Source of the DNA: Lentzea sp. NBRC 105346
Lineage (GTDB): Bacteria > Actinomycetota > Actinomycetes > Mycobacteriales > Pseudonocardiaceae
Direction of reading: 5' to 3'
NCBI RefSeq assembly: GCF_030269605.1
Contig: NZ_BSTQ01000001.1
Span: 186,001 to 250,000, forward strand
DNA: 64,000 bases
Part shown: positions 48,721-64,000 of the stretch, piece after piece
How the letters are laid out: each line of letters begins with the position of its first letter
Position numbering within the stretch: the first letter of the stretch is position 1
Made by a program: the position numbers and the translations under genes
The notes under the pieces: model-generated
What the model was told of the DNA's origin: nothing
The model's input: the letters and a program-made list of their open reading frames with translations, nothing else
Databases searched by the model: none

Positions 48721-49020
48721 GTCTGCTCCCTCGAATGCGCAGAATCTGCCACGGATTCGTGACGCACTCCAAAATTGCGTCTCGTTAGGAAACCGGCGCT
48801 ACCAGTGCAATTCGTAGTGACCGGGAAAGACCGACAGCTAATCGAGAGGTTGCCACTCGTCGTTCGGTTTTCGAACATGGTGTGCGGTCTCACTTGGCCG
48901 TAGGGCTGACCTGCATAAAGTGTGGACAATGCGCCTGTTGCACACCTTGCCGATGTCGTGGGAGCGTGTCCGTGGTCTTGTTGCCGACGAATTATGGACG
49001 TCATTCCAGTGGGGGTGTTG
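48721..49020. promoter_or_regulatory. Divergent promoter region, LuxR regulator and P450
   Basis: 300 bases between two divergent starts, with A+T-richer patches near 48765-48785 (CCAAAATTGCG) and 48915-48930 (CATAAAGTGTGG). Promoters for both genes must lie here, but I could not fix -35/-10 boxes with confidence, nor a LuxR operator. Confidence 0.4.
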
Positions 49021-50226
49021 ATGACGCACGCGAGCAGTCCGCCTGTCATGCCGGAGGCGAATGGGGACCGCAATGCCATGCTCGACTGGTTTCGCACGAT
49101 GCGGGAGCGGTGGCCGATCAACTGGTTGCCCGAGCGTCGGCTGTGCCACCTGTTCCGCTATTCCGACATTCTCTCGGTGCTCGCGGATCCGGCTACCTTC
49201 TCGTCCAACCTGCGCATGGCGCCGGACCAGGACATCTTCCGGCCGTTCGCGAAGGGCAACTTCCTTTTCATGGACGCGCCGCGGCATCGTGAGCTGCGTG
49301 GCCTGGTGAACCAGGCGTTCACGGCACGGGCCATCGCGGACAAACGACCGCGAATCGCGGCGGCGGCGAACGATCTGCTCGACACGCTGCACGAGCAACC
49401 CGCGGACCTGGCCACCGGGTTCGCCTATCCGCTGCCGACGGCCATCATCTCCGACGTTCTCGGGATCCCGGCCGGCGAGCGCGCCCAGTTCCACCGGTGG
49501 ACCGACACGTTCCTGACCGCCTCGCGGGACGCCGAGATCGACAACATGTTCGCGGACGCCTTCGTCGAGGCCGTCCGCGACTCCGTGGCCGAGATGAACG
49601 CGTACCTGAGCGACCAGGTCCGGCAGCGGCGCGCCGCCCAGCGAGAAGACCTGCTCGGGGCACTGGTGGCCGCGGAGGTCGACGGCATGCGGCTGGACGA
49701 CGAGGAGATCGTCGGCGTCGTGGCGTTGTTGATGCAGGCCGGGCACTCGACCACCGCGATGCTGATCTGCAACACCCTGCTGGCGCTGGACGACAACCCG
49801 GACGCCTTCGCCGAGGTGCGCGCGAGGCCGGAGCGGCTGGCGGCGGTGGTCGACGAGGCGATGCGGTTCAGCGTGCCCACACCGGAGACGATGCGGATCA
49901 CCACGCGTGAGGTGGAGCTCGGTGGTAACACCCTCCCCGCGGGCACCGTGGTGGTCCTCTGGCTGGCGTCGGCCAACCGCGACGAGACGGTGTTCACCGA
50001 ACCCGACCGGTTCGACCCCCGCCGCACGCCGAACCCGCACATCGGCTTCGGGCAAGGAGTGCATTTCTGCCTCGGTTCGTCCCTGGCGCTGCAGGAGGCC
50101 ACCGTCGCGCTGGAGACGCTGTTGTCGCGGTACTCGGAGATCGTCGTCGACCGCGACGCGGTGGAGGTCTACCAGACCGACTCGCTGCTGGCCGTCCGGA
50201 GGCTGCCGGTCTTCCTGCGACCCTGA
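49021..50226 (+). CDS. Cytochrome P450, probable tailoring oxidase of the second cluster
   Basis: 401 residues from ATG 49021 (MTHASSPPVM) with a G-rich site before it; the longer upstream reading is not P450-like. Signatures: I-helix QAGHSTTAML, K-helix DEAMRF (ExxR), heme loop GFGQGVHFCLG with Cys near 350. It lies between two ATPase-LuxR genes, 25 bases before the second. It probably hydroxylates a precursor or the NRPS-bound or released product. No redox partner genes are adjacent. Confidence 0.92.
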   Translation: MTHASSPPVMPEANGDRNAMLDWFRTMRERWPINWLPERRLCHLFRYSDILSVLADPATFSSNLRMAPDQDIFRPFAKGNFLFMDAPRHRELRGLVNQAFTARAIADKRPRIAAAANDLLDTLHEQPADLATGFAYPLPTAIISDVLGIPAGERAQFHRWTDTFLTASRDAEIDNMFADAFVEAVRDSVAEMNAYLSDQVRQRRAAQREDLLGALVAAEVDGMRLDDEEIVGVVALLMQAGHSTTAMLICNTLLALDDNPDAFAEVRARPERLAAVVDEAMRFSVPTPETMRITTREVELGGNTLPAGTVVVLWLASANRDETVFTEPDRFDPRRTPNPHIGFGQGVHFCLGSSLALQEATVALETLLSRYSEIVVDRDAVEVYQTDSLLAVRRLPVFLRP

Positions 50227-50250: not shown

Positions 50251-52677
50251 GTGGTCGTGCGACGGTGGCCGGCGTTGAGCGCGGGGTGTGCGGAGTGCGA
50301 CCGGATCCGGCGCGAGAACGCGGGCCGGCCGGTCCGGTACTGCTCGAACGCGTGCCGCCAGCGAGCGTATCGGCAGCGGACGAAGACTCCGGGGGCCGAT
50401 GGATCCGCCGCGGTGGGCATGATCGCGCTGACGAGCTTCGTCGGGCGGGCCATCGAGCTGGGCGAGGTGGAGCGCCTGCTGCGGTCCAACCGCCTGGTCA
50501 CCGTGGTCGGGCCCTTCGGTGTCGGCAAGACCCGGCTGGCGGCCGAGGTCGCGGGGCGGGCCTGCCGGGCCGGGCGGGCGGAGGTGGCCGTCGTGGAACT
50601 CGCCTCGGCGACGGGCCCCGATGGGCTGGCTCGCGCCATGGCCGCCACCTGGGGACTGCTGGAACCGCCGGGTGTGTCGGTGGTCGAGGCACTCGTCGCC
50701 AAGCTGAGCGGGCGGCAGGTCCAGCTCGTGCTGGATAACTGCGAGCACCTGCTCGGCGAATGCGCCTCGCTGCTGAGCGAGCTGCTTCCCCGGCTTGCGG
50801 GGCTCACCGTGCTGGCGACCAGCCGGGAGCCGCTGCGCCTTCCCGGCGAGGTGGTGTTCTCCCTCGCCGGGCTGCCGAGTCCGGCCGTCATCGGCGGTCT
50901 GTCGTTCGCCGACTCGCTCGGGTTCGACGCCGTACGTCTCTTCGTCGACCGCGCGCGGGCGGTGCGGCCGGAGCTCGGCTTCACCGACGCCGACGCCGAG
51001 AGCATCGTCACCGTGTGCGTGCGGCTCGACGGGGTTCCGCTGGCGATCGAGCTGGCCGCGCGGCTGATGCGGACGTACCGGCTCGTCGAGATCAGGGACC
51101 GCCTCGACGACCGGCTGAAGCTGTTCACCGGCGGCTGGCGGACGTCCGATCGACGGCACCACAGCCTCCGTGGCGCGATCCGGTGGAGTTACGACCTGCT
51201 CTCCCCGGACGAGCAGGCGTTGTTCCGCAGGTTGTCCTTCCTGCCGGGCCGGTTCGACGCCGAGGCCGCCGAGCTCGTCGCGGATTCCGTGTCCGGGCGG
51301 TCTTCGGCCCTGGAGACGCTGAGTTCACTCGAGGCCAAGTCACTGATCCGGGCCCGGCCCGACATCGGAGGGTTCGACATGCTCGAGTCGATCCGCTGCT
51401 TCGGGCGGGAGCGGCTCGCGGAACACGGGGAAGAAGACCAAGCGGCAGAGAGGTTGCTCGGCTGGCTGGTCAAGCTGGTGAGCCCGCTGATGGACAACGT
51501 CTCGGCGCCGGTCGGCCTGCTCACCCGCCTGCAGCAGCACCACGAGAATCTCGCGCACGTGTTCAGGTGGCTCGGCGACGGCGAGGACGAACGCCGGCTG
51601 CTCGTGGCCGTCGCGATGGTCGTGAGCCGGCTGAGCCTCGGCTATTCGGGGCTGCGTGGGCAGCAGCTGATCGACGCGATCGGCCGGGTCACACCGTCGT
51701 CGCGATACCGCAGTCTCGCGATCGGAAGCGCCGCGTGGCTGGCGCTCTGCGAGGGCGACAACGACCTGGCACCTCAGCTCATCCGGGTGGCGGTCGAGAC
51801 CGAGCGGGCGGGCGAATGCCGCCCGGCGGTCCTCGGACGGTTGTTGCTGCAGCAGAGCCACATCGCGAGGCGCTCGGGCGATGCGGACACCACGGTCATC
51901 GCGCTGCGCGACGCCGCCGACTGCTGCCGCGAGATCGGCGACCGGCTGGGCCTCGCGTTGTGCGCCAACGACCTGGCGTGGGAGCTGCTGGACCGGGCCG
52001 ACGTCGATCGGGCCAAAGCATTGTCCGACATGGCGCGTGCCTACATCGAGACCACCGAAGTGGCACCGGCGGACCTTCGCTCCGCGGTGTTCCATACCGC
52101 CGGGGTGATCGCGCTCGAGCTCGGCGACCTCAGCGGCGCCGAGGCGAGGTTCTCCACGGCCCTGCGCGCCGCGGTGACCGGGTTGGAGCACGCCGACGCG
52201 ATCGAGGGGATCGCCATCGTCGCACTGCGCACCGGGAGGTTCGAGCGCGGGCTCCTGCTCGCCGGCGCCGTCACAGTGTTCACGGACCGGACTTCCTGGC
52301 GCGACACGTGGTGCGCCAAGCGGCTGACGCGGGCACTCGAGCTCGCGCGCGACGCGCTCCCCGAGCGGCGGCGGACCGCGCTCGTCGCGGAGGGCGCCCG
52401 TCTCGATCCCCGCAAAGCGGTGGACCACGCGCTGGAGTCCCAGAGCTCCCACCCGGCCGAGGAGCCCCAGGTGACCGCGCTCAACACCAGGGAGTGGGCG
52501 GTCGTCGACCTGGTCGCCAGAGGGCTGAACAACCACCAGATAGCGGGAAAGCTGCATCTGTCCGTGAGCACTGTGGAAAAACATGTCCGCAAGATCCGTG
52601 GCACCTTCGGGTTGCGGTCGCGCGCGCAGATCGCCGCGTGGGCGGTGCGGCACCGGCGGTTCGCCGATCACACCTGA
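50251..52677 (+). CDS. Large ATPase-LuxR transcriptional regulator with N-terminal zinc motif
   Basis: 808 residues from GTG 50251 behind GGGGGAGG. The N-terminus carries CAEC and YCSNACRQRAYRQR (Cys 13, 16, 31, 35), a likely zinc knuckle that the other regulator lacks. The ATPase has Walker A GPFGVGKTRLA, Walker B LVLDNCEHLL, ATSRE and GVPLAIELAAR. The middle is TPR-like, and the C-terminal LuxR HTH reads LNTREWAVVDLVARGLN and STVEKHVRKIRGTFGL. Phe replaces the middle Gly of the Walker A. It follows the P450 in the same direction and ends 238 bases before the chain-extension operon, which it probably activates. Confidence 0.92.
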   Translation: MVVRRWPALSAGCAECDRIRRENAGRPVRYCSNACRQRAYRQRTKTPGADGSAAVGMIALTSFVGRAIELGEVERLLRSNRLVTVVGPFGVGKTRLAAEVAGRACRAGRAEVAVVELASATGPDGLARAMAATWGLLEPPGVSVVEALVAKLSGRQVQLVLDNCEHLLGECASLLSELLPRLAGLTVLATSREPLRLPGEVVFSLAGLPSPAVIGGLSFADSLGFDAVRLFVDRARAVRPELGFTDADAESIVTVCVRLDGVPLAIELAARLMRTYRLVEIRDRLDDRLKLFTGGWRTSDRRHHSLRGAIRWSYDLLSPDEQALFRRLSFLPGRFDAEAAELVADSVSGRSSALETLSSLEAKSLIRARPDIGGFDMLESIRCFGRERLAEHGEEDQAAERLLGWLVKLVSPLMDNVSAPVGLLTRLQQHHENLAHVFRWLGDGEDERRLLVAVAMVVSRLSLGYSGLRGQQLIDAIGRVTPSSRYRSLAIGSAAWLALCEGDNDLAPQLIRVAVETERAGECRPAVLGRLLLQQSHIARRSGDADTTVIALRDAADCCREIGDRLGLALCANDLAWELLDRADVDRAKALSDMARAYIETTEVAPADLRSAVFHTAGVIALELGDLSGAEARFSTALRAAVTGLEHADAIEGIAIVALRTGRFERGLLLAGAVTVFTDRTSWRDTWCAKRLTRALELARDALPERRRTALVAEGARLDPRKAVDHALESQSSHPAEEPQVTALNTREWAVVDLVARGLNNHQIAGKLHLSVSTVEKHVRKIRGTFGLRSRAQIAAWAVRHRRFADHT

Positions 52678-52915: not shown

Positions 52916-54070
52916 ATGACGAACAAGCCGCGCCGGATTTCCTTCTTCGACGCCACCTTGCGCGACGGCGAGCAGGCGCCGGGCAACGCGATGTCGCCCG
53001 AGCAGAAGGTGGACATCGCGCTGAAGATGGAAGCGCTCGGCGTCGACGTCATCGAGGCCGGGTTCCCCGGTTCTTCACCCGCGGACTTCAAGGCGACGCG
53101 GCTGATCGCCGAGACACTGACGAGGATACGGTTCGCCACGTTCAACCGGGCCAGCGTCCACGACGTCCGGCTGTCCATGGAGGCCGTCGGTGTGCGGCCG
53201 AACCACCAGATCCAGATCTGCGGCACCGGCAGCGACGTGCACCTGGTCCACAAGCGTGGGATCACGAGGGCCGAGGCGATCGCCGAGGTGGACGAGTCGT
53301 TGCGGCTGGCCGCGGAGCTCGGTGCCGAGGACATCTCGTTCGGTGTCGAGGACGCGAGCCGCGGTGAGTACGACTTCATCCACGCGCTCGTCGACACGGC
53401 ACTGGAGGCCGGGGCGCGCACGATCATCCTCGCCGACACCACCGGATGCGCGACGCCGCAGGAGTACGGCGACCTGTGCGCCGCCGTGCGGTCGTGGATC
53501 CCGGACGACGTGGTGTTGTCCACGCACTGCCACGACGATCTCGGCCTGGCGCTGGCGAACGCGATCGCGGGTATCCAGGCCGGTGCCGACGAGGTTCAGG
53601 TGACGCTGGGCGGCATCGGTGAGCGCGCGGGCAACACCCCGCTGGAGGAGCTGGCCGCCGTGCTGTCGTACAAGAGCGACTGGCTCGGTGCCACCACCAG
53701 CCTGCGCACCGAGGGCCTGTACGACGCTTACCGGCTGCTGTCCGACTGCATCTCGCTGCCCGAGATCCGCAACAAGGCGATCGTCGGGCGCAACTCGTTC
53801 GCCACGGAGGCGGGCATCCATCAGGCCGGCATGCTGCGCAACCCGGTGACCTACGAGTACATCGAGCCCGAGCGGTTCGGCCGCGAGCGCGAGCTCGTCG
53901 TCGGCAGGCACTCCGGACGCGCGATCCTGCGTCACGTGCTCGGCGGGGACGCCGACGAGGTGCTCGTGAACCGCTTGTACGAGGAGCACATCGCCAACCG
54001 CGAGCACGGCGGCTTCGAGTCGCTCGAGATGCTTCGCGACCGGGTCCGCGGTGCGGTGACGGCGCAGTGA
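52916..54070 (+). CDS. 2-isopropylmalate synthase-like enzyme (Claisen-type acyl transferase), no regulatory domain
   Basis: 384 residues. The TIM-barrel catalytic domain is complete: [16 protein letters not shown] (Arg16, Asp17), [18 protein letters not shown], metal-binding [10 protein letters not shown] (His204, His206) and [15 protein letters not shown]. The protein stops after the accessory helices ([25 protein letters not shown]). The roughly 130-residue LeuA dimer domain that binds leucine is absent, so feedback inhibition by leucine is not expected. The length is close to homocitrate synthase/NifV. The family condenses acetyl-CoA with a 2-oxo acid. First gene of a tight operon; the next start overlaps its stop by four bases. 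The oxo-acid substrate cannot be read by eye. Confidence 0.92.
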
Positions 54071-55446
54071 GCGGTCCCGTGACGCTGGTGGACAAGGTGT
54101 GGACCTCCCACGTGGTCCGCTCCGCGCAGGGCGAGCCCGACCTGCTGTACGTCGACATGCACCTGGTCCACGAGGCCACGTCGGCGCAGGCGTTCGACGG
54201 ACTCGGCCAGCGGGGCCGCAAGGTGCGGCGCCCGGACCTGACGCTGGCCGTCGAGGACCACAACGTGCCGACCGACACCCTGCTGATCCGGGATCCGGTG
54301 AGCGCGCTGCAGGTGTCGACGTTGCGCCGCAACTGCGCCGACCACGGGATCCTCCTGTTCGAGCACGGACATCGCCGGCAGGGCATCGTGCACGTCGTCG
54401 GGCCGGAGCTGGGCCTGGTGCAGCCCGGCATGACGGTCGTGTGCGGGGACAGCCACACCTCGACGCACGGCGCGTTCGGCGCGCTGGCGTTCGGGGTCGG
54501 CACCAGCGACGTCGAGCACGTCCTGGCGACGCAGACCGTTGCGGTGCAACGACCTTCGACGATGGCGGTCGAGTTCACCGGCATGCCGGCCGCGTCGGTC
54601 ACCGCCAAGGACCTGATGCTCGCGCTGATCGCGCGGATCGGCACCAACGGCGCGCGCGGGCACGTCATCGAGTACCGCGGCGAGGTCGTCTCCCGGCTCT
54701 CCATGGAGAGCCGGATGACCCTGTGCAACCTGAGCATCGAGGCGGGCGCCCGCGCGGGCCTGATCGCGCCGGACGACACCACCTTCGCCTACCTGGCCGG
54801 ACGACCCGGCGCACCCGAGGCATGGGACGACGCCGTCGCACACTGGCGGGGTCTGCGCAGCGACCCCGGCGCGGTGTTCGACCGCACGGTCACGCTGGAC
54901 TGTTCGGAGCTGAGCCCGTACGTGACCTGGGGCACGAACCCCGGCCAGGCGGTGCCGCTGTCCGGGCGGGTGCCGGAGCCCGAGTCCTTTGTGGACCCCG
55001 CGTCGGCGCGGCGCGCCCTGGAGTACATGTGTCTGCGTCCCGGAACGAGGATGCGGGACATCGAGATCGACATCGTGTTCATCGGTTCGTGCACCAACGG
55101 CCGCCTCGAGGACTTGCGCGCGGCGGCCGACGTGCTGCGCGGACGGCGTGTCACCACCAGGACCCTGGTGGTGCCCGGCTCGATGGCGGTGCGCGCCGCG
55201 GCCGAGGCGGAGGGACTGCACGAGGTCTTCCGCGCCGCGGGCGCCGAATGGCGGCTCCCCGGCTGCTCGATGTGCCTCGGGATGAACACCGACCGGGTGC
55301 GCGGCGCGCTGCGCACCGCGTCGACGTCGAACCGGAACTTCGAGGGCAGACAGGGGACGCGGGCGCGGACGCACCTGGTGTCGCCCGCCGTCGCCGCGGC
55401 CACCGCGGTCGCCGGCCGCCTCGCCCTGCCCGATGACATCTCATGA
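54067..55446 (+). CDS. 3-isopropylmalate dehydratase-like large subunit
   Basis: 459 residues from GTG 54067, overlapping the previous stop (GTGA). Aconitase-family signatures: [19 protein letters not shown], and the three Fe-S Cys residues in [11 protein letters not shown] and PGCSMCLG. With the small subunit it should move the hydroxyl of the 2-substituted malate formed by the first enzyme from C2 to C3. The general sequence is LeuC-like. The substrate could be a homologue of isopropylmalate, such as homocitrate or a longer analogue. Confidence 0.92.
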
Positions 55447-56063
55447 GGACGACTGTGCAGCCACTCATCGAACACACCGGCACCACGATGGTGCTCGCAC
55501 GCAGCGACGTCGACACCGACCAGATCATCCCGGCGGACTACTGCCGCAAGGTGACCAGGACGGGCTACGCTGACGCGTTGTTCGCCCGCTGGCGCGCCGA
55601 TCCCGGCTTCGTGCTGAACGACCCCGAACGCGCGGGCGCGACGGTGCTGGTGGCAGGACGGGACTTCGGTACCGGGAGCTCGCGGGAGCACGCCGTGTGG
55701 GCGTTGCGGGACTGGGGTTTCGTCGCGGTCATCGCTTCGAGCTTCGGTGACATCTTCCGCGGCAACGCGCCGAAGAACGGTCTGGTCCCGGTGATGCTGC
55801 CCGAGGACGCGGTGGGCGTGCTGGCCGCGGCGAGCACTGCGAACCCGCGGCTGCGGATCACCATCGACCTGGAGCGCATGGAGGTCCGAGGCCCGTCCCG
55901 CTGGCCGTTCGAACTGGAGCCGCGAGCGCGTGAGCTGCTGCTCAACGGGTTCGACGACGTCGACCTCACGCTGAGCCACGAGGCCGGGATCAGCGCCTAC
56001 GAGGGCGACCGGCCTCGCCGGCTGCCGGCGATCGGCCCCGCGTTCCTGGAAGCGGACGCGTGA
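55443..56063 (+). CDS. 3-isopropylmalate dehydratase-like small subunit
   Basis: 206 residues from ATG 55443, overlapping the large-subunit stop (ATGA). The swivel domain is recognisable by [32 protein letters not shown] and [13 protein letters not shown]. It completes the heterodimeric [4Fe-4S] isomerase. The length is normal for bacterial LeuD. The next gene starts inside its stop (GTGA), so subunit and aminotransferase are translationally coupled. Confidence 0.92.
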
Positions 56064-57184
56064 GCCGGACCTCGGCGCGGGCCGGGCTGCTGGGCGGAAG
56101 CGGACTGGTCGAGCTGCTGCGCCGGTCCGCCGGAATGGACGCCGTCGACCTCGCGCTCGGCGTGCCCGGCGTGCCCGCCCCGCCCGCGGGGCTGGTCGCC
56201 GCGGCCGGGTTCGCGTTGCTGCGCGGCGACCACCACCAGTACGCGGACCCGGCCGGGCATCCCTTGTTACGCCAACGCATCGCGGACTCGCTGGGCACCG
56301 AGGAGGACGAGATCACCGTCACCGTGGGGAGCACCGAGGGGCTCGCCGTCGCGCTGCTGTCCCTTGTGGACCCCGGCGACGAGGTCATCATGCTCGAGCC
56401 GTACTACGAGAACTTCGTCAACGCCGTTCTGCTGGCGGGTGGGGTGCCCCGGTTCGTCCGGCTGCACCGGCCGGGCTGGTGCTTCGACTCGGCGGAGCTC
56501 GCCGCCGCGTTCGGGCCACGCACCCGCGCGATGATCGTCAACTCGCCCGGCAACCCGACCGGCCGGGTGTTCTCCGGGGCGGAACTGGACGAGATCGCCG
56601 CGCTGTGCGAGAAGTGGGATGTCACGGTCGTGTCCGACGAGGTCTACTCGTCGTACGTGTTCGAGGGCGTGCACACCTCCGCCGCCGACGTACCCGCATT
56701 GCGGGACCGGTACGTGATCGTCGACTCGCTGTCCAAGAGTCACGCGGTGAGCGGCTGGCGGCTCGGCTACCTGCGCGCCCCGAAATCGTTGACGACCGTG
56801 CTGCGCCGGGTGCACGAGGCGACGACCGCGGGCGCCGCCGCGCCGCTGCAGCTGGCCGCCGCCCGTGCACTGCCGCGGGAGTGGTTCCCCGCGGAGGAGA
56901 TGCGCCGCCGCCGGGACACGGTGGCCCGCCTCTTCGCCGAGTGCGGTCTGGCGGTGGATCCGGGGCAGGGCGGTGTCTTCCTCACGGCGGGCCTCGGGGG
57001 CGCGGACAGCCGTTCGTTCGCGCGGCAGCTGCTCGAACGGACGGGCGTGCTGGTCGCGCCGGGAAGCCTCTTCGTGTCGGAGGATCACCGGGGCGACTTC
57101 GTGCGCGTCGCGTTCAACCGCACGCGGGAAGTGCTCGACACGGCTGCGACACGGCTGCGGAAGGTGGCCGCGTGTCCCGGGTAG
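56060..57184 (+). CDS. PLP-dependent aminotransferase, class I/II
   Basis: 374 residues. Fold-type I aminotransferase: NSPGNPTGRVF (substrate-carboxylate Asn-Pro-x-Gly region), SDEVYSSYVF (Asp and Tyr around the pyridine ring) and SLSKSHAVSGWRLGY with the Schiff-base Lys. It would convert the chain-extended 2-oxo acid to the L-amino acid, or supply the starting oxo acid. Its placement between isomerase and dehydrogenase, with overlapping ends on both sides, shows that transamination is part of this route; ordinary leucine operons do not carry it here. Confidence 0.9.
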   Translation: MSRTSARAGLLGGSGLVELLRRSAGMDAVDLALGVPGVPAPPAGLVAAAGFALLRGDHHQYADPAGHPLLRQRIADSLGTEEDEITVTVGSTEGLAVALLSLVDPGDEVIMLEPYYENFVNAVLLAGGVPRFVRLHRPGWCFDSAELAAAFGPRTRAMIVNSPGNPTGRVFSGAELDEIAALCEKWDVTVVSDEVYSSYVFEGVHTSAADVPALRDRYVIVDSLSKSHAVSGWRLGYLRAPKSLTTVLRRVHEATTAGAAAPLQLAAARALPREWFPAEEMRRRRDTVARLFAECGLAVDPGQGGVFLTAGLGGADSRSFARQLLERTGVLVAPGSLFVSEDHRGDFVRVAFNRTREVLDTAATRLRKVAACPG

Positions 57185-58197
57185 CGGTGATTCCGGGCGA
57201 CGGCATCGGACCCGAGGTGACCGAGCAGGCGCTGGGCACGGTGGCGTCGCTGGGGCTCGACATCGAGTTCGACGTGCTCGACCACGTCAACGCCAGCACG
57301 TTCCTGCGCACCGGCAGCGCATTGTCCGATGCGGACTTCCGGCGCGTCGCGCGCGGTGACTCGGCGCTGCTCGGTGCCGTCGGCGATCCTCGGGTGACTT
57401 CCCCCGAGTACGCGCGCGGCGTCCTGCTGCGCCTGCGGTCCGGGCTCGACCTGTACGTGAACCAGCGCCCGGCGCGGCTGCCGCACGACGACCTGAGCCC
57501 GTTGCGGGATCCGGCGAAGCGCGGGATCGACTGCATCGTGGTGCGCGAGAACACCGAAGGGCTCTACAGCGGAGTCGGGGGCGCGCTGCACGTGGCGTCC
57601 GGCCACGAGGTCGCGATCGACACCGAGATCAGCACGGCCCGTGGCGTGAGCCGGATCATCGACCACGCGTTCGGCATCGCCCGCCGTTCGGTGTGCATGG
57701 TCGACAAGTCCAATGCCGTGCCGTCCGGTGGCGCCTTGTGGCAACGCACATGGCGTTCGATCGCCGACCGGCATCCGGATGTCGTCTCATGGCACCTGTA
57801 CGCCGACGTCGCCGCGATGCGGCTGGTGAGCGACCCCGGCGAGTTCGACGTGATCGTCACGAACAACTCGTTCGGCGATGTGCTGAGCGATCTCGCCGCA
57901 GAGGTGGCCGGCGGGCTCGGCACGGCGGCGTCGATCAACCTCAACCCGGGGAGCGGATTCGCGCTGTGCGAACCGGTTCACGGCAGCGCGCCCGCCATCG
58001 TGGGTACCGGGACCGCCAACCCGATCGGCGCGATCCTCAGCGCCGCCCTGCTCGTCGGGCACCTCGGGCACCCGGCGGAGGCGGAGGCGATCCGGGCGGC
58101 GGTGGATCGGGCGATCGCCGCGGGCCGCAGAACACCGGACCTCGGTGGCTCGCTCTCGACCCAGCAGGCGGGCGACGCGGTGCGCGCCGAACTGTGA
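57172..58197 (+). CDS. Beta-decarboxylating dehydrogenase, homoisocitrate/isocitrate type
   Basis: 341 residues from GTG 57172, overlapping the aminotransferase by 13 bases. The family fold is clear: [48 protein letters not shown] and EPVHGSAP. The diagnostic strand reads [11 protein letters not shown], as in homoisocitrate and isocitrate dehydrogenases; leucine-pathway LeuB enzymes read RELTGGIYFG there. This suggests a 3-substituted malate with a polar or charged side group rather than the isopropyl group. It would oxidise and decarboxylate the isomerised intermediate to the one-carbon-longer 2-oxo acid, using NAD+ or NADP+. The NRPS start lies 26 bases on. Confidence 0.88.
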
Positions 58198-58223
58198 CCC
58201 CTTTCGTGACAAGGACTTCAAGG

Positions 58224-61200
58224 GTGGAAGCAATGCAGGACGTCCGGTTGCCGCTCACGGCCGCGCAGGCGGGATTCTGGTTCGCGCAGCAGCTCGATCC
58301 CGGCAACCCGATCTATCGGGCGCAGGAGAGCGTCGAGATCCTCGGTCCGGTCGACGCGGGCCTGCTGGTGCGGGCGCTGCGGGCGGCGATCGCCGACGCG
58401 GAGCCCTATCAGGTGCGGATCGGGCACGATGGCGACCGGGTGTGGCAGCGCGTCGAGGAGTCGGCCGACTGGCCGCTGCCCGTGGTGGACGTCAGCGGCG
58501 CGCCGGATCCGTGGGCGGCCGCGGAGAAGTGGGTTCGCGACCGGCTCGACCGGCCGGTCGAGCTCGACGGCTTCCCACTGTTCGATCTCGCCGTGCTGGT
58601 GCTCGGAGCGCAGCGGCACCTGGTTCACTTCGCCGGCCATCACATCATCGGTGACGGTGTCTCCAGCTCGATGGTGCTGAACCGGGCCGCCGAGGTGTAC
58701 ACCGAACTGGCGGCGGGCCGGCCGTGGACGCCGAGCCCCATGGGGTCGTTGCGCGACGTTCTCGCCGACGAGGCGAATTACCGCGAGAGCGAGCAGTACA
58801 CCGCCGACCGGGAGTACTGGCGACGCCTGCTCGCCGACCGGCCCGTCGCCGTGGGACTCGCCGGACGTCCCGGCCTGACCTCACATGCCTTCGTGCGGCG
58901 CAGTCACGTCGTGCCCGCGCCCGTCGCCGCGGAGCTGCGCACCCTCGCGCGTGCGTGCCGGGCCAGCCTGCCGTCGCTGATGATCGCCGCACTCGCCGTG
59001 TACGTGGAGCGGATGTGCGGGACCGGTGACGTGATGATCGGCATGCCGGTGACCGGGCGCCGGTCCGCAATCACGCGACAGACTCCGGTCACGCTCGCCA
59101 GTGAGGTACCCCTGCGGTTGCGGGTGGAGCGGGGGACGACGGTCGCCGGGCTGGTCCGGCAGGCCGCCGAGAGCGCCCGGCTCGCCTTGCGGCACCAGCG
59201 GTTCCCGCACGAGGAGATCGCCCGTGACGCGGGTGCGGTGGGTACCGGCGAACCGTTGTACGGTCCCTGTCTCAACTTCATGGCCGCCGAGCCGCCGCTC
59301 TCGTTCGCCGGCAACCCGACCGTGGCGCACAACTTCTCCAACGGACCGGTCGACGACCTGAACGTCAACGTGTACGACCGCGCGGGCGACGGCACCATCC
59401 AGGTCGACTTCAACACCAACGCCGCGCGATACACGCCCGAGGAGACCGAGCTGCATCTGCGCCGGTTCGTCGCGCTGCTGGAGACTTTCGCCGCACCGGA
59501 CCAGCCGCTCGCCACGTTCGACGTGGTGCTGCCGGAGGAACGCGAGTGGCACGACACCACGCGCGAGGTGCCCCGGCACACCGTCGTGGACGTGTTCGCG
59601 GCGCAGGCTCGCCGGACCCCGGACGCGGTCGCGCTCGTGTGTGCGGACCGGCGGCTGTCGTTCCGCGAGCTCGACGAGCGGGCGAACCGGCTGGCGCACT
59701 CGCTGATCGCGCGGGGCGCGGGCCCGGAAACCGTGGTGGCGCTCAGGTTGCCGAGGTCGGCGGACTTCGTGGTGGCGCTGCTCGCGGTGCTCAAGTCCGG
59801 CGCGGCCTATCTGCCGATCGACCCCGGCGACCCGCGCGGGTCGTACGTCATCGAGGACGCGAACCCTGTCGTGGTCCTGGACGAGATCGGTGATCCGGAC
59901 GGTTGTCCGGCGACCGATCCCGGTGTCGTGATCGACCCGGCGCACGCGGCGTACGTGATCTACACCTCGGGTTCGACCGGCCGGCCCAAGGGGGTCGTGA
60001 CCGAGCACCGCGGCCTGACGAACCTCTTCCACGACCACAATGCCCGGCTGATCGAGCCCAGCGGCGCCGGGGCCGCCGCGCTGACCGCGGCGTTCACGTT
60101 CGACACGTCGTGGGAAGGGCTGCTGTGGCTGATCGCGGGCCACGAACTGCACGTGATCACCGACGACGTGCGGCGTGACCCGTTCGCACTCGTCGAGTAC
60201 GTCCGCGAGCACCGGATCGACATGCTCGACCTCACCCCGGCGCACGCTGCCCAGCTCGTGGACGCGGGCCTGCTGGACGCCCGCCCGCGGGTCCTGTTGC
60301 TCGGCGGTGAGGCCGTGGACGAACGGCTGTGGCGGGTCCTGCGCGCGCGAGCGGCGATGAGGGTCGTCAACTACTACGGCCCGACCGAGGCCACAGTGGA
60401 CACTCTGGTGGCGGACCTGGCCCGGCACGAGCGACCCGTCATCGGCACCCCGATGTGGAACACGGGCGCGCACGTGCTCGACGCCGGGCTGCGACTGGTG
60501 CCACCGGGCGTGACCGGTGAGCTCTACCTGACCGGTGTGCAGCTCGCCCGCGGGTACCTGGGCCGGCCGGGTCTCACCGCGACGCGGTTCGTCGCGAACC
60601 CGTTCGGTCCCGGCCGCATGTACCGCACGGGAGACCTGGTCCGCCGGGACGCGACCGGGACCCTGGAGTTCGTCGGCCGCGCCGACGACCAGCTCAAGAT
60701 CCGCGGCTTCCGGATCGAGCCCGCCGAGGTCGAGGAGGTGCTGCGGCGCTGGGCGGACCAGGCCGTGGTCGTGGTCCGCGAGGACGCGCCGGGTGACCGC
60801 AGGCTCGTCGGGTACGTCACCGGCGCCACCGATCCGGCCGTCCTGCGGGTGCGGGCCGCCGAGTTCCTGCCGCCGTACATGGTGCCGTCCGCGATCGTGG
60901 CTCTCGACGCGTTTCCGTTGACCGGCAACGGGAAGATCGACCGCGCCGCCCTGCCCGCGCCGACCGCGGCACTGCCCGTCACCGACGGTCCGCGCAGCCC
61001 GGCGGAGCTCGTGCTGTGCGGGTTGTTCGCCGAGCTGCTGGGAGTCGGCGCGGTCGGTGTCGACACCGGCTTCTTCGACCTGGGCGGCGACAGCATCCTC
61101 GCGATGCAGCTGGTGAGCAGAGCCCGTCGTGCCGGGATGGTGCTGTCCACCCGGGATGTGTTCACGCACCGGACGGTCGCCGCGCTGGCTGCCGTAGCGG

Positions 61201-64000
61201 GTACGACAGTGTCGGGAACGAAGGTGGCCGCCCCCGTCCGGGTGACCGGTGCCGGCACGGTCGGTCCGACCCCCATCACCGAATGGCTCCGGGAGCTCGG
61301 CGGGCCGTTCGCGCGGTACAGCCAGTCGCTGGTACTGCGCGTGCCCGCCGGCCTCGGGCTCGATCGGTTGACCCGGTCGGCGCGGGCGCTCGTGGATCAC
61401 CACGACGCGTTCCGGATGCGCCTGGAACCGGGACACTGGTCCTTCGTCGTCGCCGAGCCCCGCACCGTGGATGCGGATCTCGTGGAACGCGTCGACGCGG
61501 CGGACGCCGATCTCGACGCGATGGTCGCGGCGTACACCCCGGCCGTGCGGGCGAAGCTCGACCCCGTGTCGGGCGCGGTCCTGCGGCTCGTGTGGTTCGA
61601 CGCGGGACCCGGCCGCGAGGGAAGGCTGCTGATCGTCGCGCACCACCTCGTGATCGACGGCGTGTCGTGGCGGGTGGTCGTGCCCGACCTGATCGCTGCC
61701 TGGCGGGGGGAAGCTCTCGAACCGGTCGGCACGTCGCTGCGCGAGTGGGCCGGGATACTCGCCCTGCAGTCCACCGAGGACGAGCGCGTGGCCGAACTCC
61801 CGTGGTGGCGCAAGGTCCTGGAGGCCGGCGACCCGCCACTGACCGAGCGGTCGCTCGAACCGGAGACGGACGTGGTCGCAACGGCACGCACCCTGCGTGT
61901 CGACGTCCCGGCGGCGGAGCTGCTGACGACCGTGCCGGCCAGATTCCGGTGTGGTGTCGACGAAGTCCTGCTGACCGCGCTCGCCCTCGCGGTGGCGCGG
62001 TGGCGCGGCACCGGTGAGACGGCGGTGCTCGTCGACCTGGAAGGGCACGGCCGCGAGCACGGCACCGCCGACCTCTCCCGGACGGTCGGCTGGTTCACCA
62101 GCGTGTTCCCGGTGCGGCTGGACCCCGGCCAGGACGTCGGACGTGCGCTCCAGCGGGTCAAGGAGCAGCTGCGGGCGTTGCCGGACAAGGGGATCGGGTT
62201 CGGTCTGCTGCGCTACCTGAACCGCGACACCGCGCCCGAGCTGTCCGGACGGACGCCGCAGATCGCCTTCAACTATCTCGGCCGCTTCGACACCGGGGAG
62301 TGGGCGGTCGCGGGTTCGCCGCTGGACGGTGCGGGTGCGGACGACCGCATGCCGCTGGCCTACCCGCTGGAGGTCGACGCGGTCGCGGACGGCGACCGGC
62401 TGACCGTCTCGTGGACGTGGCCGTCGGCGCTGTTCACCGAAGACCGGATCCGCGAACTGAGCGAGGGGTTCGTCGCGGCACTGCGTCAGGTGATCCGTCA
62501 CGCGGTCCCCGGCCTGACCCCGTCGGACGTGCGGCTCGCGCGGCTGGACCAGCAGCAGATCGATCGGCTGGAGGCGGCCCGTCCCGGAGTCACGGACATC
62601 TGGCCGCTGTCACGGCTGCAGGAGGGCATGCTTTTCCACGCCCGCTACGAAGCAGAGGACCCGTACACCCCGCAGCTGTGCGTCGACTTCGAGGCCGATC
62701 TCGACCCGGGGCGGCTACGGGCCGCGGCGACAGCGTTGCTGCACCGGCACCCGACGCTACGGGCGGGCTTCTGGGACACCGAGCTGGATCATCCGGTGCA
62801 GTTCATCGCCGGCGATGTGGAACCGAGCTGGCGGGAGATCGACCTCTCCGGCGCCGGTGACCGGTCCGCGGCGCTGGCCGGCGTCCTGGCCGAGGACCGG
62901 GAGCGGCGGTTCGACCTCTCCCGGCCACCCCTGCTGCGCTTCGCGCTGATCTCACTGGGCGGCAACACCTATCGCCTCCTGCTGACCCATCACCACATCC
63001 TGCTGGACGGGTGGTCGACGCCGACTCTGATCCGTGAGCTGTTCCAGCTGTACGCGGGCATGGCACTCCCGCCGGTCGCGTCCTATCGCGACTACCTGGC
63101 GTGGCTCGCCGGCCAGGACCGCGCGGCCGCCGAACGAGCCTGGGGTGCCGCCCTCCACGGTGTCACCGGCTCGACGTCGCTGGCGCCCGTCGACGGCCCG
63201 CGGACCGCCGCGCGGCCCGAGCAGATCACCGTGCCCCTCGATCGCGCCCTCTACCGCGCCCTCTCGGGCCGGGCACGGGCGCACGGTCTCACGCTCAACA
63301 CCGTCTTCCAGGGCGCATGGGCGATTCTGCTGAGCCACCTCACCGGCCGCGACGACGTCGTGTTCGGGGCGACGGCCGCGGGACGCCCACCGGAGCTCGC
63401 GGGCGTGGAGCGGATGGTGGGCCTGTTCATCAACACGCTGCCGCTGCGGGCGCATGTCGACCCGGCGCGGCCGGTCACCGACCTCCTGCGCGGGGTGCAG
63501 GACCACCAGGCAGGCCTCTCCGCGTTCGTGCACGTGAACCTGGCGGACGTCAGGCAACTGGCCGGGGCGGGCGAGCTGTTCGACACGATCATGGTGTTCG
63601 AGAACTACCCGTTCGACGACGAGGAGATGCGCGAGCCCGTGCCGGGCGTCCGGCTCACGAGCATCGAGGCGCACGACGCCACGCACTACGCGCTGAGTGT
63701 GGCGGTCATTCCCGGCCCCGAGCCGTACATGCACCTCGGCTACCAGCCGGACCTGTTCACCCGCGACGCTGTCGCGGCTGTCGGCGAGCAGTTCCTGCAG
63801 GTGCTCCACGAGGTGGCGCGTGACCCCTCGATGCGGGCCGGGCAGGTCGGTGTCCTGCCCGCCGGGCAACGCGCCGATGTGCTCACCCGGTGGCAGGGGA
63901 CGACCACCTCCCTGCCCGAGATCGCGTTGCCGCGCGCGTTCCGCGCCGTCGTGGAGGCGACTCCGGACGCGGTCGCGCTGGTGTGCGGTGACGTGGAACT
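58224..64000 (+). CDS. Non-ribosomal peptide synthetase, 5' part (C-A-PCP-E-C-A...)
   Basis: 1925 residues visible; the gene runs off the window. Start taken as GTG 58224 because AAGGA precedes it; GTG 58206 and ATG 58233 are in frame. Domains: condensation 1-430 (HHIIGDG at about 139), opening [19 protein letters not shown]; adenylation 440-930 ([19 protein letters not shown], Lys904); PCP 940-1010 (GGDSI, Ser957); epimerisation 1020-1440 ([21 protein letters not shown]); condensation 1455-1870 (HHHILLDGW at about 1589); start of a second adenylation domain. A hand alignment of the first A-domain pocket gives D-T-E-D-L-G-Y-V-D-K, close to Gln/Glu-type pockets but with Glu at the third position. 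The first residue is therefore loaded and flipped to D. A starting C domain implies an N-acyl cap or an upstream donor. Confidence 0.95.

Follow-up and report, generated by a model that had tools for sequence, protein, structure and literature searches.

The 64,000-nucleotide stretch of the Lentzea sp. NBRC 105346 genome analysed here (hereafter the window) carries a plus-strand cassette of five genes (52916-58197) that encode, in this order, a putative 2-oxo-acid/acetyl-CoA condensing synthase, the LeuC-like and LeuD-like subunits of an isomerase, an aminotransferase and a beta-decarboxylating dehydrogenase, followed by the gene of a nonribosomal peptide synthetase (NRPS) (Table 1). The successive cassette genes overlap by 4, 4, 4 and 13 bases, and the five overlapping genes recognized in a first-pass annotation of this DNA were confirmed by their coordinates and overlaps. 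The distance of 26 bases given there between the cassette and the NRPS gene holds if the latter starts at GTG 58224, whereas it amounts to 35 bases from the preferred ATG start at 58233. The NRPS reading frame extends beyond the window as far as G000:C1:258272 (L019, 4679 aa). As suggested by the analysis of these genes and their relatives, the cassette probably homologates a 2-oxo acid that is non-acidic and exceeds 2-oxoisovalerate in size, and provides the product as a building block for the NRPS.

Table 1. Features of the cassette operon and of the genes upstream of it (positions in the window).
Feature	Position	Strand	Size and evidence
2-oxo-acid/acetyl-CoA condensing synthase (putative; LeuA/HphA-like, without regulatory domain)	52916-54070	+	384 aa; Pfam PF00682
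Isomerase large subunit, LeuC-like	54067-55446	+	459 aa; NCBIfam PRK05478, 699.7 bits (cut-off 510)
Isomerase small subunit, LeuD-like	55443-56063	+	206 aa; above NCBIfam PRK01641 and TIGR00171 cut-offs
Class I/II PLP (pyridoxal phosphate) aminotransferase	56060-57184	+	374 aa; Pfam PF00155
Beta-decarboxylating dehydrogenase, LeuB-like	57172-58197	+	341 aa, GTG start; Pfam PF00180
NRPS, first part (C-A-T-E-C and start of A2)	58233-64000	+	Pfam and motif positions; the E label is a reading
Cytochrome P450, probable tailoring gene, cluster membership presumed	48922-50226	+	Pfam PF00067, E 3.5e-41
Large LAL-like regulator of the LuxR type, probably regulating the cluster	50251-52677	+	Pfam GerE at C-terminus

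Catalytic motifs were found on reading the sequences of all five cassette enzymes, the lysine motif of the aminotransferase being SKSHA. Pfam analysis of the synthase revealed an HMGL-like domain and a partial HCS_D2 domain and detected no LeuA regulatory domain, in agreement with the earlier statement that the enzyme is devoid of the leucine-sensing domain. The best LeuA model matched the synthase with 367.2 bits against a cut-off of 532, and the protein stayed under the cut-off in all 25 NCBIfam families shown of 28, the LeuA, homocitrate synthase and citramalate synthase models included. The dehydrogenase was likewise under the cut-off of all 16 families listed and missed those of LeuB (319.7 bits against 393 and 239.4 against 353.2). 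The LeuC-like and LeuD-like subunits passed the leucine-family cut-offs (Table 1 for the former; 227.2 bits against 167 for the latter).

The same genome encodes a complete second set for leucine biosynthesis, comprising LeuA (597 aa, PRK03739 type, C11), LeuB and LeuC with an adjoining LeuD, along with CimA (C23). NCBIfam scores against cut-offs were 904/455 for LeuA, 583.5/393 for LeuB, 806.7/510 for LeuC and 610.8/450 for CimA, and the housekeeping LeuD was identified by a 52% match and its position beside LeuC. The identity between cassette and housekeeping proteins was 66% for LeuC and 46% for the dehydrogenase. The relation of the two sets was examined in 10 cassette-bearing genomes, chosen from those in hand, together with the window genome, which gave 11 copies per side. 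Exactly two LeuC matches at E <= 1e-100 occurred in each of the 10 genomes, with identities of 70-78% for the first and 63-69% for the second, and all 10 carried one cassette-like dehydrogenase (61-68%) and one LeuB (43-47%), with further dehydrogenase paralogues at 41-43% in four of them. In the LeuC tree the 11 cassette copies split from the 11 housekeeping copies with support of 100/100, and in the dehydrogenase tree a cassette clade (n=11, 99/99) stood apart from a housekeeping clade (n=11, 100/98). Since these clades are separate within the same genomes, the cassette LeuC and dehydrogenase are paralogues with a history of their own. Tight clustering with LeuA/C/D/B in a genome devoid of a second leucine set, which the first-pass annotation had held to speak against its proposal, was not observed, because the complete housekeeping set is present and the clades are separate.

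A quick tree of 61 synthases, built from 28 cassette rows, 24 LeuA-like rows from other phyla (24 of 69 such loci), eight distant Streptomyces rows and the CimA of the window genome, placed the 28 cassette rows in one actinobacterial clade with an SH-aLRT (Shimodaira-Hasegawa-like approximate likelihood ratio test) support of 100, under a long-branch warning that concerned chiefly the CimA and L157. These comparisons support the proposal of a full dedicated acetyl-CoA homologation cycle that includes transamination, is linked to an NRPS and is separate from the housekeeping enzymes of leucine biosynthesis.

Five positions have been listed as probable determinants of substrate choice in such synthases, occupied by Leu/Glu/Ser/Asn/Glu in 2-isopropylmalate synthase (IPMS), His/Arg/Thr/Ser/His in homocitrate synthase and Ala/Asp/Ala/Met/Ser in HphA, with three of the five varying among HphA homologues, as stated in the excerpted text of PMC12961565. 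Among the LeuA-like rows of other phyla (n=68), 62 carried the IPMS pattern LESNE and the remaining six departed from it at one position, and this agreement served as a check of the alignment columns. None of the 28 cassette synthase rows contained LESNE. The window synthase has Phe76, Ser141, Gly143, Ile171 and Glu236 (FSGIE), with the homocitrate-synthase residue at none of the five positions. Residue 34 of LeuD is Cys in all 11 cassette copies and Leu in all 11 housekeeping copies, and Cys was also found at this position in all 16 cassette rows of a further alignment. In the dehydrogenase, the window copy carries Ala81/Val84/Ala182 in place of the housekeeping Glu/Leu/Val, the pattern being [AG]/V/A in 11/11 cassette copies against E/[LF]/V in 11/11 housekeeping copies; accordingly, the loops ERG[LF]LL and HKxNV (housekeeping, 11/11) are changed to [AG]RxVLL and DKxNA (cassette, 11/11). 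Clade-wide residue changes are therefore a property of three cassette enzymes. The LeuB and LeuD loops compared here presumably touch the substrate side chain. Most of the changes are toward smaller or less polar residues, and this trend, together with the missing homocitrate-synthase residues, argues for a bulky hydrophobic 2-oxo acid, which would fit the predicted pockets of the synthase, LeuD and the dehydrogenase, whereas 2-oxoglutarate would not.

The same residues bear on the conversion of 2-oxoglutarate to 2-oxoadipate and 2-aminoadipate, suggested in the first-pass annotation alongside homophenylalanine as an example of the homologation logic. This route shares the reaction logic of the cassette, and the dehydrogenase does bear, from residue 124, the sequence [11 protein letters not shown], formerly regarded as a signature of homoisocitrate-type enzymes. 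However, a near-identical motif ([11 protein letters not shown]) also occurs in a distant dehydrogenase paralogue of the same genome and hence is not homoisocitrate-specific, the recognition loop [10 protein letters not shown] of the dehydrogenase is LeuB-like and hydrophobic, and the synthase pocket is F/S/G/I/E against H/R/T/S/H in homocitrate synthase. Homocitrate-synthase cut-offs (265.9 bits against 462.9; 239 against 413.55) and homoisocitrate dehydrogenase cut-offs (NF040626, 230.3 against 540; NF040619, 213 against 500; NF040855, 193.7 against 680) were missed by wide margins. On the grounds of pocket residues and cut-off scores, 2-aminoadipate and a homoisocitrate-type dehydrogenase were rejected, and we regard this product as highly improbable; the homophenylalanine side of the earlier suggestion is retained as the preferred one.

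Plain isopropylmalate chemistry, by which the cassette would feed the NRPS with a second supply of leucine or 2-oxoisocaproate, has been proposed for the cyanobacterial fma and portoamide clusters in the excerpt of PMC13252402 and would agree with the leucine-family scores of the cassette LeuC and LeuD. As judged by the synthase, which lacks LESNE and stays under the LeuA cut-offs, by the dehydrogenase scores below the LeuB cut-offs and by the clade-wide changes in LeuD and dehydrogenase, such a role appears unlikely.

We infer the reactions, the substrate and the place of the homologated residue in the NRPS as follows. The synthase would condense a hydrophobic 2-oxo acid with acetyl-CoA, and the LeuC/LeuD-like pair would isomerise the resulting 2-alkyl- or 2-benzylmalate to a 3-substituted malate. 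Oxidation and decarboxylation by the dehydrogenase would yield a 2-oxo acid with one extra CH2, to be converted by the aminotransferase to the homo-amino acid, for activation by a hydrophobic adenylation (A) domain in the adjacent four-module NRPS. The NRPS contains five condensation-type, four AMP-binding, four PP-binding and one thioesterase stretch according to Pfam and was read as C-A-T-E/C-A-T/C-A-T/C-A-T-TE (condensation, adenylation, thiolation, epimerization and thioesterase), the E label being a reading. Codes of A domains were read by script at nine positions from anchors picked by eye, with the tenth Lys assumed, and were DTWDLGYVD for A1, DAYWWGGSV for A2, DVWHISLVD for A3 and DALLLGAVF for A4. 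Among these, only the A3 code reads clearly, as a Ser-type code; the naming of the NRPS product from the codes was dropped on this account. A text search of open-licence papers with the codes found no paper. An attempt to locate the homologated position through A domains shared with related clusters was likewise dropped, as no code was common to all.

The closest solved structure of the aminotransferase is that of the Thermus glutamine aminotransferase 1v2d (E 2.1e-53), and other close solved relatives are of the kynurenine/glutamine-K types. Glutamine and kynurenine/glutamine-K aminotransferases favour aromatic and other hydrophobic substrates. The first A-domain code of cassette-linked NRPSs was DAWTVAAVC in L028 and G197 and DAWNIAAVC in G412, both of them Phe-type or Phe-like, and no Phe-like code was seen in the parts read of the G471, G543, G631 and L030 NRPSs. 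The window A4 domain was closest to the L028 and G197 A domains, by the small margin of 53-54% identity against the 52% that it shares with A3 of the same NRPS. Because of these aminotransferase relatives, the Phe-type codes and the similarity of A4, phenylpyruvate or 4-hydroxyphenylpyruvate is the substrate we prefer, with homophenylalanine or homotyrosine as the product, at a confidence slightly short of an even chance.

A branched-chain substrate, 4-methyl- or 3-methyl-2-oxovalerate, would lie within the same general scheme and lead to homoleucine or homoisoleucine, as in the mycoplanecins; it is a serious competitor, to which we assign a somewhat lesser but still considerable likelihood. 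The excerpt of PMC10817943 describes L-homoleucine formation in vitro by mycoplanecin MypK and MypL with primary LeuB and LeuC, and homoleucine is present in ulleungmycin A and noursamycin C, with putative genes of leucine metabolism in the ulm and nsm/cur clusters, according to the excerpt of PMC7459860. The changed pockets of the cassette enzymes are compatible with this substrate too. On the other hand, the mycoplanecin reconstitution ran on primary LeuB and LeuC, which would leave less need for copies of LeuC, LeuD and LeuB that are dedicated and re-tuned, and the window A4 domain groups, although weakly, with Phe-type A domains.

Several points weigh against an aromatic substrate or against the pocket argument beneath it, in addition to the small margin of A4. 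The window synthase pocket differs from that of HphA, and within it Phe76 is larger than the Leu it replaces and the step from Asn to Ile171 is no clear reduction. The pocket roles are assigned by alignment, complemented for LeuD and the dehydrogenase by structural literature, and the synthase tree and alignment cover families other than the actinobacterial housekeeping LeuA, which is of a different subfamily. The fourth condensation domain of the NRPS has HEIAADG in place of HHxxxDG, the HH motif being found four times in the protein but never in this domain; as the second His of the motif, the replaced one, is presumably catalytic, module 4 may be unusual. Finally, a 4-hydroxyphenylpyruvate-dioxygenase-like protein beside the cassette in L027 (360.9 bits against a cut-off of 277) backs aromatic chemistry only loosely.

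A scan of GTDB contigs, of which the best 80 of 566 matches were listed, placed among these matches 11 actinobacterial loci (L021-L031) at 56-68% identity to the synthase, followed by matches from other phyla at <=47%; the cassette taxa among them were Streptomyces, Actinoplanes, Micromonospora and Pseudonocardiaceae. Surveys at E <= 1e-90, which like the following ones count the window genome where it belongs, gave 2 of 24 genomes of its own genus and 6 of 397 drawn from its order. At E <= 1e-45, matches were found in 3 of 67 genomes from the genus of Actinoplanes couchii and in 22 of 392 drawn from that of Streptomyces parvulus (14 at 55-67% and eight at 36-41% identity). Such a patchy distribution would be in line with a horizontally moved cluster. 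The gene order of the window, of which the first-pass annotation knew no other example, turned out to be shared by seven of 15 other dehydrogenase-bearing cassette loci (L025, L028, L029, L030, L141, L142 and L154). In another seven (L021-L024, L026, L027 and L031) the dehydrogenase precedes an aminotransferase of only 40-45% identity, perhaps a different gene. In the last one (L106/G010) the aminotransferase gene is some 14 kb distant.

NRPS genes were found near the cassette in L028, L029/G197, L030, L023/G412, L141, L142 and L154, and PKS-like (polyketide synthase-like) genes, as read from the sequence, in L021, L022 and L024, with a PKS-like fragment in L031; the use of the cassette thus seems to extend beyond NRPS pathways. 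This company lends some weight to an alternative in which the extended 2-oxo acid would serve directly, or after reduction or C-methylation, as a starter or side unit, with the aminotransferase working in reverse to make the short 2-oxo acid; the methyltransferase of L027, with its weak match to 2-ketoarginine methyltransferase (54.1 bits, cut-off 425), could be read likewise. We consider it improbable for the window, whose operon directly contains the NRPS as its only assembly line. With regard to the preferred aromatic substrate, we tentatively propose an actinobacterial lineage of a portable five-gene cassette, in which the synthase, LeuD and dehydrogenase could have been re-tuned together for a phenylpyruvate-type acid, as a dedicated route to homophenylalanine/homotyrosine that is distinct from the HphA/B/CD of cyanobacteria and has moved between NRPS and PKS clusters; this larger picture is possible rather than probable.

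Further loci show variations of the gene set. Twelve of them (L143-L153 and L115) carry a cassette-clade synthase, and the 12-20 kb retrieved for each contain no dehydrogenase; LeuC and LeuD are present in 11 of 12. Their pathways might stop at the 3-substituted malate. In L021, L022, L024 and L031 the cassette and PKS-like genes are accompanied by a Lys_Orn_oxgnase-type N-monooxygenase (scanned in L022 only), and the cassette neighbours in L027 and L026 include a PhyH oxygenase, a PLP decarboxylase and the methyltransferase mentioned above (scanned in L027 only). L155 and L156 combine a distant synthase (39-41% identity) with frames that by eye look LeuC-like, dehydrogenase-like and aminodeoxychorismate-synthase-like, and L155 additionally has a prephenate-dehydratase-like frame, also by eye, and an NRPS; these two loci possibly homologate an amino-aromatic precursor.

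Around the window operon, the upstream P450 gene ends 24 bases before that of the LuxR-type regulator, both on the plus strand, and a second P450 gene overlaps the end of the NRPS gene (L008:8269-9438). Long modular PKS-like reading frames, recognized by eye, occupy positions 2-25277 of the window; other genes, among them one for a RecQ-like helicase, lie between these frames and the NRPS operon. Further downstream on G000:C1, the cluster is followed by a minus-strand open reading frame of ~11,000 aa (L008 9983 into L010) and, beyond it, by small frames that look WXG100-like by eye; this region is perhaps a locus for type VII secretion.

Peptide natural products are considered to gain stability and availability from homologated residues, and in the known pathway HphA has been described as the gatekeeper that selects the substrate (excerpt of PMC12961565). 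A complete five-gene cassette with its own transaminase and a three-enzyme residue signature gives genome mining a marker for peptides whose side chains are lengthened, and its copies offer a natural enzyme set for comparing substrate choice. A description of this actinobacterial five-gene cassette was not found in the open-licence literature, judged by title and abstract start.

Compared with the housekeeping leucine biosynthesis of its own genome, the cassette uses the same enzyme families but differs in separate LeuC and dehydrogenase clades, other pocket residues and another synthase subfamily. Homologation for peptide natural products is established for the cyanobacterial HphA/HphB/HphCD system (excerpts of PMC12961565 and PMC6562525). 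With this system of Nostoc punctiforme, which serves homophenylalanine and homotyrosine in anabaenopeptins, the cassette shares a dedicated synthase, isomerase and dehydrogenase and acetyl-CoA homologation for an NRPS. Unlike Hph, it has an isomerase encoded by two overlapping genes instead of a single HphCD protein, an aminotransferase in the operon and a synthase pocket of F/S/G/I/E instead of A/D/A/M/S. The mycoplanecin enzymes MypK and MypL of Actinoplanes awajinensis, which together with primary LeuB and LeuC serve homoleucine and homonorleucine, resemble the cassette in an actinobacterial IPMS-like synthase, a LeuD homologue, a transaminase and an NRPS cluster; there, however, MypL is a LeuD-transaminase didomain and LeuB and LeuC are primary, whereas the window has five dedicated separate genes (excerpt of PMC10817943). 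Hph and Myp were compared by their described features and pocket residues, the HphA and MypK sequences standing outside the synthase tree, and the search for MypK in the Actinoplanes genus (3/67 matches at E <= 1e-45) revealed no LeuD-transaminase fusion in the stretches seen. The korormicin producer Pseudoalteromonas is gammaproteobacterial. Its Kor16-Kor21 are similar in that 2-isopropylmalate synthase, dehydratase and dehydrogenase genes lie beside PKS/NRPS genes, but the synthase has 513 aa and the available part of the gene table names no aminotransferase (PMC10079959). Cystargolide and belactosin biosynthesis also employs an isopropylmalate-synthase homologue in a specialised pathway paralleling leucine biosynthesis, yet there a 3-alkylmalate leads to a beta-lactone, and the clusters are described as devoid of NRPS/PKS genes in the excerpt of PMC11408123. 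The window cluster thus appears to work like the known homologation systems and, by the features compared, is neither the Hph nor the Myp set, because its isomerase is unfused, its aminotransferase is operon-borne, all its steps are dedicated and its pocket is different.

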